Of a DNA stretch of 64,000 nt, positions 11,962 to 54,589 are shown piece after piece (within the stretch, counting starts at the first letter, position 1; every line of letters begins with the position of its first letter). Made by a program: the position numbers and the translations under genes. This stretch comes from Frigoribacterium faeni (GTDB lineage Bacteria > Actinomycetota > Actinomycetes > Actinomycetales > Microbacteriaceae), in assembly GCF_007988805.1 (NCBI RefSeq), contig NZ_BJUV01000019.1, positions 1 to 64,000 on the forward strand, written 5' to 3'. The notes below the pieces were generated by a model. It was not told where the DNA came from and ran no database searches. It saw only the letters and a program-made list of their open reading frames with translations.

Positions 11962-13884
11962 TCAGCGGCGACGGAGGGTGCCGAAGATGCCCTTGACGAC
12001 CTCGCGCACGATGGCCTTGCCCGCACGGGACCCGAGCACGTCGCCGATGACCCCTCCGGTCGACCCGACGGGAGCGCGTGAACCCGAGGAGGCACAGGTC
12101 GTCGACGACCGTCCCGCCCGCTTCGCCGCCGCGGCGCGCTCGGCTCGCTCGAACTCCTTCTGCTGACGTTCGTACTCGGCCTGGGCCGCCTTCCGCTCGC
12201 GTTCGGCGGCGGTGGCGGCCTTCGCGTCGGCCTTCTCGCGGGCCGCGGCCTCTTCGAGCTGCGCCTCGATCGTCGCCTGTCGAGCGGCGGCGTCGGTGCG
12301 CTCCCGCGCGTCGAGCGCCGCGGCCTCCAGCTTGCGGGCGAGGATCTCGCGCGCCGAGTCGCGGTCGATGGCCGTCCCGTAGGCGGCCAGGAGGGGCGAG
12401 GCGGCGACCGTCGCCTGCATCTCCTCGGCCGGGGTGGGCGACATCGAGCCCTGCGGCGCACGGAGGCGCGTCCAGGCGACCGGGCTGGGCGCCCCCTTCT
12501 CGTTCATGACCGTGACGACCGCCTCCCCGGTGGCGAGGGTGGTCAGCACCTGGGCGAGGTCGTAGTCGCTCGTCGGGTACGTCGAGACCGTCGCCCGCAG
12601 CGCCTTCGCGTCGTCGGGCGTGAAGGCGCGCAGCTGGTGCTGCACCCGGGAGCCGAGCTGGGCGAGCACCTCGCCGGGCACGTCCTTCGGGGTCTGCGTC
12701 ACGAACACGATGCCGACGCCCTTGGAGCGGATCAGCCGCACGGTCTGCGTGATCTGGGCGACGAACTCCTTCGAGGCGTCGGTGAAGAGCAGGTGCGCCT
12801 CGTCGAAGAAGAAGACGAGCTTGGGCTTCTCGAGGTCGCCCACCTCGGGCAGGTCGTTGTACAGGTCGGCCAGCAGCCACATCAGGAAGGTCGAGAAGAG
12901 CGCGGGCTGGTCGTGCACGCCGGGCAGCTCGAGCAGGCTGACGACGCCGCGGCCGTCGGCGGCCGTGCGGAGGAACTCGGCCGTGTCGATCTCTGGCTCG
13001 CCGAAGAACGCGTCGGCGCCGCGGTCGGCGAACGTGATCAGCTCGCGGAGGATCACCCCGACGGTCTGCTTGCTCAGGCCGCCGAGACCGTCGAGCTCGC
13101 CCTTGCCGCCGTCGCTGGTCAGATAGGTCAGCACGGCCCGGAGGTCGGTGAGGTCGAGCAGCGGCAGGCCGGCCTGCTCGGCGTAGTGGAAGACCAGACC
13201 GAGGCTCGACTCCTGCGTGTCGTTGAGGCCCAGCACCTTGCTGAGCAGCAGCGACCCGAAGCCGCTGACCGTGGCGCGGACCGGGATGCCCGTGCCGATG
13301 CCGCCGAGCGCGAAGTACTCCGTCGGCGCCGACTGCGGGACCCAGCTCTGTCCGACGCCCGCCGTGCGGGAGAGCAGCGCCTCGCTCGGCTCGCCCGGGC
13401 TCGCGATGCCGGACAGGTCGCCCTTCACGTCGGCGGCGAAGACCGGAACGCCCGCCGCCGAGAGCTGCTCGGCGAGCACCTGCAGCGTCTTGGTCTTGCC
13501 GGTGCCGGTGGCGCCGGCGACCAGGCCGTGCCGGTTGAGCATGGCGAGAGGGATGCGCACGGGCACGTCGGCCCGGGCCTCGCCGTTGACCAGGGCGCCC
13601 AGCTCGAGGGCCGGACCGTCGAAGCCGTAGCCGGTGCGGATGGCGTCGATCGCGGGCTCGCCGAGCGGGCCGGAGTCGGCCGACGGATCGGCGATGCCCG
13701 CGGAGCCGGCCGCCTCCGCGACGCTCGCCTCGGCGGACGCCTGCTCCGCGGCGGAGGCCGCGGCCGCATCGGCGGCGAGCTGCTCCGCCCGGGCGAGCGC
13801 CGCCTCCGCGTCCTGCCTCGCCTTGTCGGCAGCGGCGACCGCGGCGGCGGCCTCCGCCCTGGCCTGCTCGAGCGCGTCCGTCAT
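11962..13884 (-). CDS. HerA-like helicase/ATPase (DUF853 family)
   Basis: 640 residues. A long Ala/Glu-rich coiled coil at residues 1-70 is followed by the ATPase. Walker A is GATGTGKTKT, after RHGLVA, and Walker B is LVFFFDEAHLLF. The downstream TPKDVPGEVLAQLGSRVQHQLRAFTP region is characteristic of DUF853. A second coiled coil (about 520-590: AAREKADAKAATAAERERKAAQAEYERQQKEFERAERAAA, quoted here only in part as key segments) precedes a Gly-rich tail with a GGVIGDVLGSRAGKAI element. HerA relatives work as hexameric DNA translocases, but the cellular role of DUF853 proteins is not settled. Single-gene unit. Confidence 0.85.
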   Translation of the reverse strand: MTDALEQARAEAAAAVAAADKARQDAEAALARAEQLAADAAAASAAEQASAEASVAEAAGSAGIADPSADSGPLGEPAIDAIRTGYGFDGPALELGALVNGEARADVPVRIPLAMLNRHGLVAGATGTGKTKTLQVLAEQLSAAGVPVFAADVKGDLSGIASPGEPSEALLSRTAGVGQSWVPQSAPTEYFALGGIGTGIPVRATVSGFGSLLLSKVLGLNDTQESSLGLVFHYAEQAGLPLLDLTDLRAVLTYLTSDGGKGELDGLGGLSKQTVGVILRELITFADRGADAFFGEPEIDTAEFLRTAADGRGVVSLLELPGVHDQPALFSTFLMWLLADLYNDLPEVGDLEKPKLVFFFDEAHLLFTDASKEFVAQITQTVRLIRSKGVGIVFVTQTPKDVPGEVLAQLGSRVQHQLRAFTPDDAKALRATVSTYPTSDYDLAQVLTTLATGEAVVTVMNEKGAPSPVAWTRLRAPQGSMSPTPAEEMQATVAASPLLAAYGTAIDRDSAREILARKLEAAALDARERTDAAARQATIEAQLEEAAAREKADAKAATAAERERKAAQAEYERQQKEFERAERAAAAKRAGRSSTTCASSGSRAPVGSTGGVIGDVLGSRAGKAIVREVVKGIFGTLRRR

Positions 13885-46474: not shown

Positions 46475-46550
46475 GACTTCTCCTGGTGTCTCATCTTCGA
46501 GATTTCTCTTCTTCGAGCGGGGAGCGAGCTGGTGGTGCTGTGTGCGGTGC

Positions 46551-46582
46551 GGTGGTGCGGTGGTGCGGTGGTGCGGTGGTGC
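46551..46582. repeat. Octamer tandem repeat, four copies of GGTGGTGC
   Basis: Four perfect copies, preceded by a partial copy at 46544-46550 and an isolated one at 46531-46538. It lies 77 bp upstream of the sugar-binding lipoprotein gene, in the 179-bp gap after the upstream dehydrogenase gene. As a rotation the unit is GTGGTGCG, one base different from the array at 2345-2392. Confidence 0.95.
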
Positions 46583-50868: not shown

Positions 50869-51834
50869 ATGACGCCGACGACGATGCACGCCATGGTGAT
50901 CGAGGAGGTCGGCGGACCCGACCGTCTCGTCGCCAGGGACGTCCCCCGGCCGCAGCGCGTCGGCAGCGAGGTGCTGGTCAAGGTCACGGCAGCGGGCGTC
51001 AACCGGTGCGACGTGGAGGCGCGCGAGGGCAGGGCGGACGGCGCCGCCCTCGCCACGTTCCCAGCCGTGCTCGGACACGACTTCAGCGGCGTCGTGGTCG
51101 AGACGCCGTACGCGGCGCATCCGCTCCGTCCGGGCGACGCCGTCTACGGCATGGGGACGTTCCCGCGGGGCGGCGGCAGCTACGCCGAGTACATCAGCGT
51201 GCCGTCGATGTCGGTGGCGCGGAAGCCCGCGTCGCTGTCGCACGTCGAGGCGGCCGGCGTTCCGCTCGCCGCGCTCACGGCATGGGGCATGGTGGTCGAG
51301 GTGGCCAAGGCGCACGAGGGTCAGCGCATGCTGATCCAGGCCGGCGCCGGCGGGGTGGGGCACTTCGCCGTCCAGTTCGCCTCCTACTTCGGCGCGCACG
51401 TCGTCGCGACCGGGTCGCAGCGGAACTCCGGCTGGCTGCGGGAGCTCGGTGCCGCCGAGGTCGTCGACTACTCGTCGGCCGAGTTCGATCGGACGACGCG
51501 CGACGTCGACGTCGTGCTCAACCTCCTCGACGACGACGAGGTGGCGACCCGCTCGCTGGCCGTCCTGCGGCCCGGCGGGCTGATGGTGCAGGCACCGTCC
51601 TCGAACCGGGAGGCGCTGGTCGGCCGGGCGGCGGACGCAGGACTGCGGGCGACCGGCTTCGCCGTGACTCCTGACGCGGCGACGCTCGCCGTCATCGGCC
51701 GCCTGCTCGACTCAGGCGACGTCCACGTGTACGTCGACGACGTCTACGACCTCGCCGACGCGGCTGACGCCCAGCGACGGCTGGAGCAGGGCCACACCCG
51801 GGGCAAGCTCGTCCTCCGGGTCGCCGACGAATGA
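50869..51834 (+). CDS. NADP-dependent quinone oxidoreductase-like protein (MDR family)
   Basis: 321 residues. GroES-like N-terminal domain (MHAMVIEEVGGPDRLVARDVPRP; VLGHDFSGVVVETPY) and a Rossmann domain with nucleotide loop IQAGAGGVGHFAVQFA. No zinc-ligand cysteines are seen, so it fits the zinc-free quinone oxidoreductase branch (Qor/zeta-crystallin). It would use NADPH to reduce quinones or enones. It ends 10 bp before the convergent GNAT gene. Confidence 0.9.
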   Translation: MTPTTMHAMVIEEVGGPDRLVARDVPRPQRVGSEVLVKVTAAGVNRCDVEAREGRADGAALATFPAVLGHDFSGVVVETPYAAHPLRPGDAVYGMGTFPRGGGSYAEYISVPSMSVARKPASLSHVEAAGVPLAALTAWGMVVEVAKAHEGQRMLIQAGAGGVGHFAVQFASYFGAHVVATGSQRNSGWLRELGAAEVVDYSSAEFDRTTRDVDVVLNLLDDDEVATRSLAVLRPGGLMVQAPSSNREALVGRAADAGLRATGFAVTPDAATLAVIGRLLDSGDVHVYVDDVYDLADAADAQRRLEQGHTRGKLVLRVADE

Positions 51835-51844
51835 GCCCGCACCG

Positions 51845-52381
51845 CTAGAGGGCGCACTCGTAGACGAGGTCGTCGTGGGTGCGACCGCCGACGACGAATC
51901 GACGCGTCCCCACCTGCTCGAAACCGTGCTTCGCGTAGAAGGCCTGGGCCCGGCCGTTCTCGGCGTTCACGCCGAGCCAGACCGACTCGGCCCCGCCCGT
52001 GCTCACGACCTCGAGGGTGGCCGTCATGAGACGCCCGCCGACGCCGCTGCCGTGCACGTCGGGCATGAGATAGAACTTGCTCAGCTCCGCCGTCGGACGG
52101 GCCTCGACGGCGCGCGCGACGTCACCGTCGGTCGGCTCGCCCTCGACCAGCATGGAGTAGCCGACGAGGTCGAGGGAGTCCTCGTCGACGGCCACGAGCA
52201 CCGTGCGGCGGGCGTCGGCGATGTACTCGGAGAGACGATCCTGGCTCAGGTTCTCGACCACGAACCGCGCGATCTCGACGAGGGTCGTCCCGGGAGGGCA
52301 GGCGAGCGGGAAGGTCACGGCGGCCACGTGGGCGAGCGCGCGGGCGTCGGAGGGGACGGCGAGGCGGATGGAGACGGTCAC
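51845..52381 (-). CDS. GNAT family N-acetyltransferase
   Basis: 178 residues from a GTG at 52381. The frame stays open further upstream to 52642, but that part is repeat-derived and has no GNAT homology, so it is left out. The acetyl-CoA site is FYLMPDVHGSGVGGRLMTATL (residues about 120-140), followed by GVNAENGRAQAFYAKHGFEQVGTR. The N-terminal half (VSIRLAVPSDARALAHVAAVTFPLACP) resembles the actinobacterial GNAT proteins with unknown acceptor. It ends the coding region before the repeat cluster. Confidence 0.85.
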   Translation of the reverse strand: MTVSIRLAVPSDARALAHVAAVTFPLACPPGTTLVEIARFVVENLSQDRLSEYIADARRTVLVAVDEDSLDLVGYSMLVEGEPTDGDVARAVEARPTAELSKFYLMPDVHGSGVGGRLMTATLEVVSTGGAESVWLGVNAENGRAQAFYAKHGFEQVGTRRFVVGGRTHDDLVYECAL

Positions 52382-52483
52382 CCGCCCATCGTGCCGCACC
52401 CGGCCGCACTCGGCTCGCGCAGCCGCTCGGCAGCCCTGCTCTCCTGCCGCCGGATCGTGGCCGCCCTCGCCCCTCCCGCACGC

Positions 52484-52565
52484 CGGCGACTCCACACCCC
52501 TGCCGCACACACCCCACGACACCCCGGCGACCAACGGCCGCGGGCGCACGAGTGCGGAGTTACCG
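52484..52565. repeat. 82-bp L unit 1
   Basis: First copy, with a left end of CGGCGACTCC. It diverges from the others around 52524-52534. Confidence 0.85.
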
Positions 52566-52603
52566 AACCGGCGCGCACAGGTGCGGAGTCGGCAACCGGG
52601 CGT

Positions 52604-52685
52604 CGGCAACTCCACACCCCTGCCGCACACACCCCACGACACGCCTGCGACGAACGGCCGCGGACGCAGGAGTGCGGAGTTACCG
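52604..52685. repeat. 82-bp L unit 2
   Basis: Canonical copy, exactly 120 bp after unit 1. It differs from unit 3 at only three positions by eye. Confidence 0.9.
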
Positions 52686-52750
52686 ACCGGGCGCGCACAG
52701 GTGCTGAATTACCGGCCGGGGGCACGGGTGCGGAGTCGGCGACCGGGCGT

Positions 52751-52832
52751 CGGCAACTCCACACCCCTGCCGCACACACCCCACGACACGCCTGCGACGA
52801 ACGGCCGCGGGCGCGGGAGTGCGGAGTTGCCG
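52751..52832. repeat. 82-bp L unit 3
   Basis: Canonical copy, with the best inverted ends: CGGCAACTCCACAC and GTGCGGAGTTGCCG (13 of 14 pair). Confidence 0.9.
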
Positions 52833-52899
52833 ACCGGGCGCGCACAGGTGCGGAGTTAGCGACCGCGCGCACGGGTGCGGAGTTGGGGCGACCAGGCGT

Positions 52900-52981
52900 C
52901 GGCAACTCCGCACGCCTGCCGCACGCACCCCGCGAAACGCCTGCGACGGACGGCTGCGGGCGCAAGAGTGCGGAGTTACCG
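52900..52981. repeat. 82-bp L unit 4
   Basis: Diverged copy (left end CGGCAACTCCGCAC, several internal changes), still exactly 82 bp. Confidence 0.85.
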
Positions 52982-53082
52982 ACCGGGGGCGCAGAGGAGG
53001 GGTGCGGAGTTACCGACCAGGCGCGCACGGGGGCGGTACTACCGACCGGGCGCGCACGGGTGCGGTACTACCAAGCGGGCGT

Positions 53083-53164
53083 CGGCAACTCCACACTCCT
53101 GCCGCAGACACCCCGCGACACGCGTGCGACGAACGGCCGCGGGCGCAGGGCGCAGGAGTTGCCG
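53083..53164. repeat. 82-bp L unit 5, right end altered
   Basis: Last copy. The right end reads GCGCAGGAGTTGCCG, so the GTGCGG part of the inverted end has decayed. Confidence 0.85.
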
Positions 53165-53289
53165 ACAGCGTGGAGGGCCGACGAGTCCGTAGACGGCACC
53201 CGGCACACAGGGCACGGCAGACGGCGTCCCGGCTCGGGTGGGACCGCACCCGTGTGGGGTGGACGGGGCCCCACGGCGGGGACGACGAA

Positions 53290-53317
53290 GGCCGCCCCGC
53301 TGGAGAGCGGGACGGCC
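53290..53317. terminator. Terminator of the rplK-rplA unit
   Basis: GGCCGCCCCGCT and AGCGGGACGGCC arms around GGAG, 33 bases after the rplA stop. One mismatch and no clear T-run. Confidence 0.7.
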
Positions 53318-53349
53318 TGTCGTGACGATCGTGTGATCGAGACCGGAGC

Positions 53350-54039
53350 CTAGAAGACGTTGATGTCGAGGGGGATGCCGGGACCGAAGGTGGTCGAGAG
53401 CGTGCCCTTGGTGATGTAACGGCCCTTCGAGGAGGACGGCTTGAGGCGGACGACCTCGTCGAGCGCGGCGTCGAGGTTGGTGTTCAGCTGCTCTTCCGAG
53501 AAGCCGGCCTTGCCGATGACGAAGTGCACGTTGCTGTGCTTGTCGACACGGAACTCGATCTTTCCGCCCTTGATGTCGTTGACGGCCTGCGCGACGTTGG
53601 GGGTCACGGTGCCGGTCTTCGGGTTGGGCATGAGGCCACGGGGGCCGAGGACCTTACCCAGACGACCGACCTTGCCCATGAGCTCGGGGGTCGAGACGGC
53701 GGAGTCGAACGACGTGTAGCCGCCGGCGACCTTCTCGATGAGCTCGTCGCCACCGACCTCGTCGGCGCCGGCCGCGATGGCGGCCTCGGCCGCGGCACCC
53801 GTCGCGAAGACGATGACGCGAGCGGTCTTGCCGGTGCCGTGGGGCAGGATGACCGTGCCACGGACCATCTGGTCGGCCTTGCGGGGGTCGACGCCGAGCT
53901 TCAGCGCGACCTCGACGGTCGAGTCGAACTTCTTGGAGCCGGTCTCACGGGCGACGGCGACGGCCTCGCTGGTGCTGTAGAACTTGCCTGCCTCGATCTT
54001 CTCGGCAGCGGCGCGGTACGCCTTGGACTTCTGAGCCAT
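53350..54039 (-). CDS. rplA: Ribosomal protein uL1
   Basis: 229 residues. [68 protein letters not shown] and [11 protein letters not shown] are diagnostic. It binds 23S rRNA at the L1 stalk and is often an autoregulator of its own mRNA. It follows rplK after 118 bp. rplJ-rplL is not next to it but 18.4 kb away. Confidence 0.98.
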
Positions 54040-54157
54040 GTGGAAATCTCCTGATTTCGAGAGTGCGGTAACGAGCCTGGCCGGCTCTCCCACGGATGTC
54101 TGTTCGGTGCTGCGACGGCCGTGCGGCCGACGCGGCGGGTGCCGTGACGGCGGGTGA

Positions 54158-54589
54158 CTACGCGTCGACCGTGATGCCCATGGAGCGGGCGGTGCCGGCG
54201 ATGATCTTCGCCGCGGCGTCGATGTCGTTGGCGTTGAGGTCGGCCTGCTTGGTGGTGGCGATCTCGCGGACCTGGTCCATGGTGAGCTTGCCGACCTTGT
54301 CGGTGTGCGGGGTCGACGAGCCCTTGGCGACGCCGGCGGCCTTCTTGATGAGCTCCGCGGCGGGCGGGGTCTTGAGGACGAACGTGAACGAACGGTCTTC
54401 GTAGACGGTGATCTCGACGGGGACGACGTTGCCGCGCTGCGACTCGGTCGCGGCGTTGTAGGCCTTGCAGAACTCCATGATGTTCACGCCGTGCTGACCC
54501 AGGGCCGGGCCGATGGGCGGGGCGGGGTTCGCGGCGCCGGCGTTGATCTGAAGCTTGATCAGACCCGTGACCTTCTTTTTCGGTGCCAT
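54158..54589 (-). CDS. rplK: Ribosomal protein uL11
   Basis: 143 residues. [42 protein letters not shown] is the conserved N-terminal domain, the [14 protein letters not shown] linker follows, and the C-terminal RNA-binding domain ends in [10 protein letters not shown]. It sits at the GTPase centre with the thiopeptide-binding rRNA. Transcribed with nusG and rplA. Confidence 0.98.

Follow-up and report, generated by a model that had tools for sequence, protein, structure and literature searches.

An array of inverted pairs beside rplA

The window, that is, the whole 64,000-nucleotide stretch of Frigoribacterium faeni DNA analysed here, carries on its minus strand the ribosomal protein L1 gene rplA (53350-54039, TIGR01169) and a GNAT-type acetyltransferase gene (51845-52399; GNAT models match, all under their cut-offs). 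Between 52399 and 53350 no gene was called by our own caller, a simple composition-based one used throughout this study. A repeat array occupies this region, and a terminator-like hairpin on the minus strand (53290-53317), recognised by eye and seen in relatives too, lies between rplA and the array. The array is well beyond chance (TRF score 716; self-match E value 1.2e-54). A sequence-only reading had described five L units of exactly 82 bp, and these are borne out at 52484-52565, 52604-52685, 52751-52832, 52900-52981 and 53083-53164, with the gaps of 38, 65, 67 and 101 bp that it gave. The L ends are inverted and the right-end motif is present in the shorter S units, so that its proposal of two inverted S-like ends flanking a private middle was upheld, as was growth of the array by local duplication. 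Its picture of inner copies alike and outer copies decayed holds roughly: the second and third L units are 96% identical, the first and second 93%, and the remaining pairs 82-91%. The constant 9-bp remnant that it saw in every gap fails, as the 67-bp gap consists of 29, 27 and 11 bp.

The true repeated unit is 86 bp (GTCGG...CCGAC), namely L with 2 bp added at each end, and forms an inverted pair of half-sites. Five such elements, none assigned to a strand, are located at 52482-52567 (two decayed half-sites with 2 mismatches each), 52602-52687 (0 and 1 mismatches), 52749-52834 (two exact half-sites), 52898-52983 (0 and 1 mismatches) and 53081-53166 (two exact half-sites). The S units are additional right half-sites spaced 27-34 bp apart, found on the plus strand of the spacers: one decayed copy in 52568-52601, two each in 52688-52748 and 52835-52897, and three, two of them decayed, in 52984-53080. 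Their spacings of 27, 29 and 34 bp are not whole helix turns, and the proposed counting rule for S units did not show up as a rule of the family: at other loci, stray half-sites are separated by 24, 34 and 41 bp. Open frames traverse the array; an encoded repeat protein is nevertheless unlikely because no gene was called, one repeat period (149 bp) disrupts the reading frame, and the same place is empty in relatives.

A genus-wide element family with quantised length

The rplA array is one cluster of a Frigoribacterium-wide element family, whose units consist of two inverted half-sites (GTCGGCAACTCCTG, followed by a weaker TGC block) flanking a variable middle. Far from being the sole locus, the exact pair was found in 14 of 16 genomes of the genus and the 12-mer in all 16, each of which has 7 to 36 copies, whereas the pattern with its letter order reversed gave 0 to 3. 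Among 84,980 species genomes, all 32 stretches matching GTCGGCAACTCC-N40-70-GGAGTTGCCGAC belonged to Frigoribacterium. Within Microbacteriaceae, the exact half-site pattern occurred in 9 of 398 genomes, every one Frigoribacterium. A relaxed 9-mer pattern was present in 10 of 10 Frigoribacterium genomes drawn and, with a single match each, in 3 of 388 other genomes; its backwards-read control matched 4 of those 388, and on this comparison the idea that other Microbacteriaceae genera share the identical half-site was rejected. The array was unmatched in plasmids or phages and the half-site pair in viral contigs, and searches aimed at the element in open-access papers found no literature on it.

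Across 61 stretches, 214 of 232 exact 12-mers had a facing partner in phase (≤3 mismatches). Outer lengths fell into classes of 75-76, 84-88 and 95-98 bp, with none at 60-74 or 77-83 bp and one at 93 bp, while anchors placed at random in these loci gave chance partners at approximately 0.4 per length per 232 anchors. The class means, calculated by hand, are 75.2, 86.0 and 96.8 bp, which gives steps of approximately 10.8 bp. Among the remaining 18 12-mers, 14 lacked a partner at 40-140 bp, and half of those (7/14) represent a short palindrome in the spc operon. As some loci had been found by a pattern permitting 64-94 bp, 12-mers without an exact partner were also read, in 40 short stretches around 12-mers with no listed exact partner (one already seen paired). 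A phased partner was found for 36 of 43 such 12-mers at ≤4 mismatches (32 at ≤2), and four of the seven without one sit inside called genes.

Several features of individual loci were recorded alongside. In five genomes (G006 C2:895826, G012 C2:531905, G004 C2:55253, G011 C2:195064 and G001 C7:427750), the spc palindrome sits between rplE and rpsH (gene names by eye); it is 28-29 bp long and built of the same 12-mer. One lineage has CGACACGCC in common in its element middles. Pairs of 98 bp overlap called genes at L265, L273 and L277.

A/T content of the middles follows helical phase

The A/T content of the middle tracks helical phase and reverses between even and odd turn counts. With 6 and 8 turns there is a central peak, the A/T fraction at the centre against that 4-6 bp off being 0.29 versus 0.11 for 6 turns (n = 22), 0.51 versus 0.07 for elements of 95-97 bp (n = 10) and 0.45 versus 0.03 for those of 98 bp (n = 5). 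With 7 turns, the centre is a minimum flanked by peaks 4-6 bp off (0.10 versus 0.32, n = 72), and this pattern persists without the GACACG-core elements (n = 54). In 1000 shuffles of the middles, an equally extreme pattern arose 4 times for 6 turns and never for 7 or 8; the test for 9 turns had n = 2. Counting from the element end, there is a weak peak at 28 bp and there are clear ones at 38-40 and 48-50 bp. Such phased A/T would be the signature expected of bent or looped B-DNA clamped at both half-sites.

The spacings are comparable to those of LacI short loops, in which two operators are 6-8 turns apart. LacI loops of 65-86 bp work in vivo (PMC5081198), and bacterial loops show an in vivo helical repeat of approximately 11 bp (PMC8501960). 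Those loops, however, belong to an operon or an engineered construct and not to a dispersed element family.

A nuclease-like candidate partner gene

Elements of 98 bp overlap the 3' end of genes encoding a protein of approximately 320 residues. At its N-terminus, the PADLOC AbiEi model matched three of three proteins (best E value 7.1e-5) and Pfam AbiEi_4 matched two of six (E values 0.0046 and 0.029, below the cut-off). At the C-terminus, the Vsr/MTES_1575-like family PF18741 matched five of the six, all below the gathering score, with E values from 1.7e-6 to 0.048 (1.7e-6 in G019 and 2.7e-4 in G036, both from other genera; 3.4e-4, 0.0016 and 0.048 in Frigoribacterium); the remaining protein of the six scanned, from L110, had no such domain matches. 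A Vsr-family REase is treated in PMC3710099. E185, D213, E223, D225, H230 and K240 do not vary among 19 Frigoribacterium copies and the two homologs from other genera, and this set of E, D, E-x-D, H and K, conserved in all 21 proteins, comprises the residues expected of a Vsr/MTES_1575-like PD-(D/E)XK nuclease. Sequence searches of NCBIfam and PDB gave no result for the protein, and it was absent from the plasmids, phages and viral contigs searched. Structure predictions were poor (mean pLDDT 44.6 and 56.1), and neither model gave a significant fold match; the top Foldseek match in the first list was AbiEi 6y8q, which from such a poor model was not significant (E value 0.37).

A profile search of the examined loci recovered 22 full-length copies, covering all 16 genomes; every one of the 16 has the gene directly behind glyS, and six have a second copy elsewhere. 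No homolog lies within the window according to the same kind of search. An element candidate precedes each of the 22 copies at a distance of no more than 600 bp, in one case only when 5 mismatches are allowed, although most loci were chosen for containing elements and element-free gene copies may be missed. The near end of the element is 111 to 181 bp before the gene start in 21 copies and 332 bp in G006. Under control criteria of ≤3 mismatches at about -270 to -100, 19 of the 22 nuclease-like genes (counted by hand) had an element, compared with 23 of the 691 genes called at these loci, a set from which the nuclease-like genes were not removed. Of 19 full-length copies, at least 9 have their 3' end overlapped by a 98-bp element. 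The partner of the elements is probably a protein predicted to join an AbiEi-like winged helix to a Vsr/MTES_1575-like nuclease domain.

Paralogs and other genera

A paralog group, 43-44% identical, includes two full copies and a third that is cut off. Upstream of these three genes are 75-bp elements, two of them decayed, and in 75-bp elements of this type the inner block GGAGAACGGC or GGAGTTCGGC replaces the usual one. By eye, variant 75-bp elements (L186, L169 and L166) were also seen among uppS-like, aminotransferase-like and PhoH-like genes, adjoining the paralog.

Other genera were sampled through twenty 20-kb stretches downstream of leuA, unselected for elements or for the gene, and two nuclease-like homologs were found there (in G036 and G019). 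The G036 homolog follows glyS, with a 97-bp pair before it and a 108-bp pair behind it, built from the half-site GTCGGAAATTCAGGAG. In 300 contiguous kb of this genome there are nine pairs of 97, 98, 108 or 120 bp and no pair of any other length from 41 to 159 bp, while one strong half-site is unpaired. Both the quantisation and the flanking of the gene thus recur with a different half-site. In G019, which represents a third genus, the sole pair upstream of the homolog is terminator-like, 57-59 bp long and followed by T's, and no other pair with its motif was seen in the 140 kb examined. In L298 of this genome, glyS is followed at 12543-12599 by a 57-bp terminator-like pair and T-run just ahead of the nuclease homolog.

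Proposed paired-site model

We propose, with a probability of roughly 70%, that the phased elements are bound by the nuclease-like protein, bend or loop the DNA, serve in autoregulation and have been dispersed. The proposal builds on the quantised spacing, the phased A/T, the gene association at the examined loci, the matching of subfamilies and the recurrence in a second genus, and also on the likeness of the half-sites and their uncompensated 12-mers described below. Each unit would be a paired double-stranded binding site, with inverted half-sites of approximately 25 bp on the same DNA face, 6, 7 or 8 turns apart, or 8, 9 or 10 in another genus. Two protein subunits would hold both half-sites, bending or looping the intervening DNA, and the likeliest binder would be the winged-helix and nuclease-domain protein of the same genome. 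Elements just upstream of its gene may act as an autoregulatory operator, analogous to AbiEi, and could be regarded as wide-set versions of AbiEi-type operators. Further copies may have been dispersed, possibly with the aid of the nuclease, to intergenic places mostly behind gene 3' ends, with local growth by duplication; the window array would be one derived cluster of such copies.

Alternatively, the phased sites might serve another host protein, of the nucleoid or roadblock type, with the nuclease-like gene as merely one target. Most elements do adjoin other genes (just 34 of 158 are near the 19 nuclease-like genes analysed), and an element follows leuA in all 15 readable Frigoribacterium genomes (≤4 mismatches in all; one partly masked genome is left out of this comparison). 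We nevertheless consider this reading unlikely. No genes other than the nuclease-like ones were noticed to have elements at several loci that are not orthologous; element variants track gene variants, and the flanking recurs in a second genus. Some element places carry their own terminator-like hairpin ahead of the element, as judged by eye.

Genomic placement and turnover

Elements grouped into 83 clusters, of which 48 lay between co-directional genes, 24 between convergent and 2 between divergent genes, with 6 overlapping called genes and 3 at locus edges; the caller overlooks many nuclease-like genes. Placement is thus mostly behind gene 3' ends, as for REPs. Genes such as glyS, leuA and a DsbA-like gene were named by eye, and scans against family models were run on two overlapping sets of 10 neighbouring proteins. 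None of the other 15 Frigoribacterium genomes has a phased pair at the rplA place, and the next gene after rplA is 53 to 356 bp away in relatives compared with 951 bp in the window genome (own caller). The empty place together with the short intergenic distance points to the window array as a derived, lineage-specific gain.

At the leuA place, 12-mers were 0.93 identical between species, a value favoured by the choice of the best copy by motif, compared with 0.40 for the middles and 0.80 for leuA third codon positions. The middles at these orthologous places are thus near random. Element length is 75 bp in two species and 85-87 bp in the rest, and two have extra copies of 96-98 bp. The Frigoribacterium half-site pair was found at this place in 0 of 14 other genera.

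If the elements were pure mobile-DNA relics of the MITE type, the half-sites would be transposon ends, phased for synapsis only and without a host role. The gain at rplA, where 15 of 15 relatives are empty, would suit this reading, as would a 68% match over 248 bp between the window array and G000 C4:23985-24232, a place in the window's own genome. Conservation at leuA argues against it, the half-sites having been kept while the middles diverged beyond third codon positions. Neither does target duplication favour it: none is clear at the edges of the window array, and none is consistent at lengths 2-12 in 109 elements, of which length 5 reaches 2 SD. No autonomous element with such ends came to light incidentally. 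Altogether, we regard relics of this kind as quite improbable. MITEs are likewise short and dispersed with terminal inverted repeats, but the middles here are largely unlike between loci and the length is quantised.

With respect to chromosomal position, leuA is the middle of the conserved element core and lies approximately 300-344 kb from a dif-like site in nine of ten genomes (by hand) and 658 kb from it in G015. These counts cover the 10 genomes with leuA and a dif-like site on one contig, the latter identified by the dif pattern. A terminus-centred role was rejected on these distances.

Probable double-stranded half-sites

The half-site consensus is GTCGGCAACTCCTGC. In 109 non-redundant phased elements, the left and the mirrored right half matrices are alike, with GTCGGCAACTCCTG, weaker positions, and TGC at positions 20-22. 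Deviations in the 12-mer are not compensated across the element, where pairing is no more frequent than in shuffled data, and this suggests that the units are double-stranded half-sites and not hairpins. Nor was re-pairing seen within half-sites (20 deviants at position 6, 0 restored). At positions 13, 20, 21 and 24, the halves agree above within-genome shuffles (z 2.3-3.3), and position 19 is below; we attribute the pattern to subtypes, although pairing would also fit the excess agreement.

A structured RNA or a REP-like single-stranded hairpin, as the earlier reading had considered, could draw on this agreement of a few inner positions, on the inverted ends and REP-like placement, and on the weak fold that the half-site consensus adopts by itself. 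Given the uncompensated deviations, the helix-turn steps for which RNA offers no evident reason, and the lack of any Rfam match in 51800-54200, we judge it very improbable. Integron attC ends have the forms RYYYAAC and GTTRRRY and are maintained by folding; an attC site was rejected, as the left end here is CGGCAAC and the 12-mer deviations are uncompensated. Ordinary tandem duplication accounts for local copy number and S counts, but as a chance origin of the spacing it is barely conceivable, since it gives no reason why inverted pairs of quantised length recur at many loci, and again in a second genus, around middles that are unrelated.

Relation to known systems

REPs are processed in single-stranded form by a Y1 transposase, whereas here double-stranded half-sites in helical phase appear together with a PD-(D/E)XK-like protein. 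The likeness to REP/BIME elements with RAYT (TnpA-REP) lies in dispersed intergenic repeats by gene 3' ends and in a dedicated gene (PMC2817692). PMC3733652 describes REPs as palindromes of 20-40 bp with a GTAG or CGTC tag. Both tags are absent from our consensus, and membership in REP/BIME, which the first reading had entertained, does not hold, as the half-sites are not maintained by pairing and lack the tag.

In the operators of AbiEi and Rv2827c (type IV toxin-antitoxin), too, inverted repeats come in pairs ahead of the gene for the protein itself, a winged-helix protein of the kind predicted here. According to PMC7319586, AbiEi recognises two inverted repeats of 23 bp in its own promoter, binding them cooperatively and bending the DNA. 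The AbiEi and Rv2827c repeats are 3 or 13 bp apart within the promoter, whereas the half-sites here are 6-10 turns apart and the elements chromosome-wide, and the protein carries a predicted nuclease-like domain.

On balance, we lean slightly towards a new class of dispersed protein-DNA system in Microbacteriaceae, in which a winged-helix PD-(D/E)XK protein would be matched with a whole-turn paired operator that doubles as a mobile or selected chromosomal site. Such a system would be a double-stranded, looped-DNA counterpart of RAYT/REP based on a nuclease, with operator and protein co-diverging between paralogs and genera into several separate pairs. If true, the elements would amount to a natural archive of in vivo DNA looping, one that samples 6, 7, 8, 9 and 10 turns and avoids intermediate lengths, and their A/T pattern would reveal the direction of the DNA bend. 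The named candidate partner gene makes the purpose of these dispersed intergenic repeats directly testable.

Elsewhere in the window, two perfect 8-bp tandem repeats were observed, GTGGTGCC in 6.2 copies at 2345-2394 and GGTGCGGT in 4.6 copies at 46546-46582.
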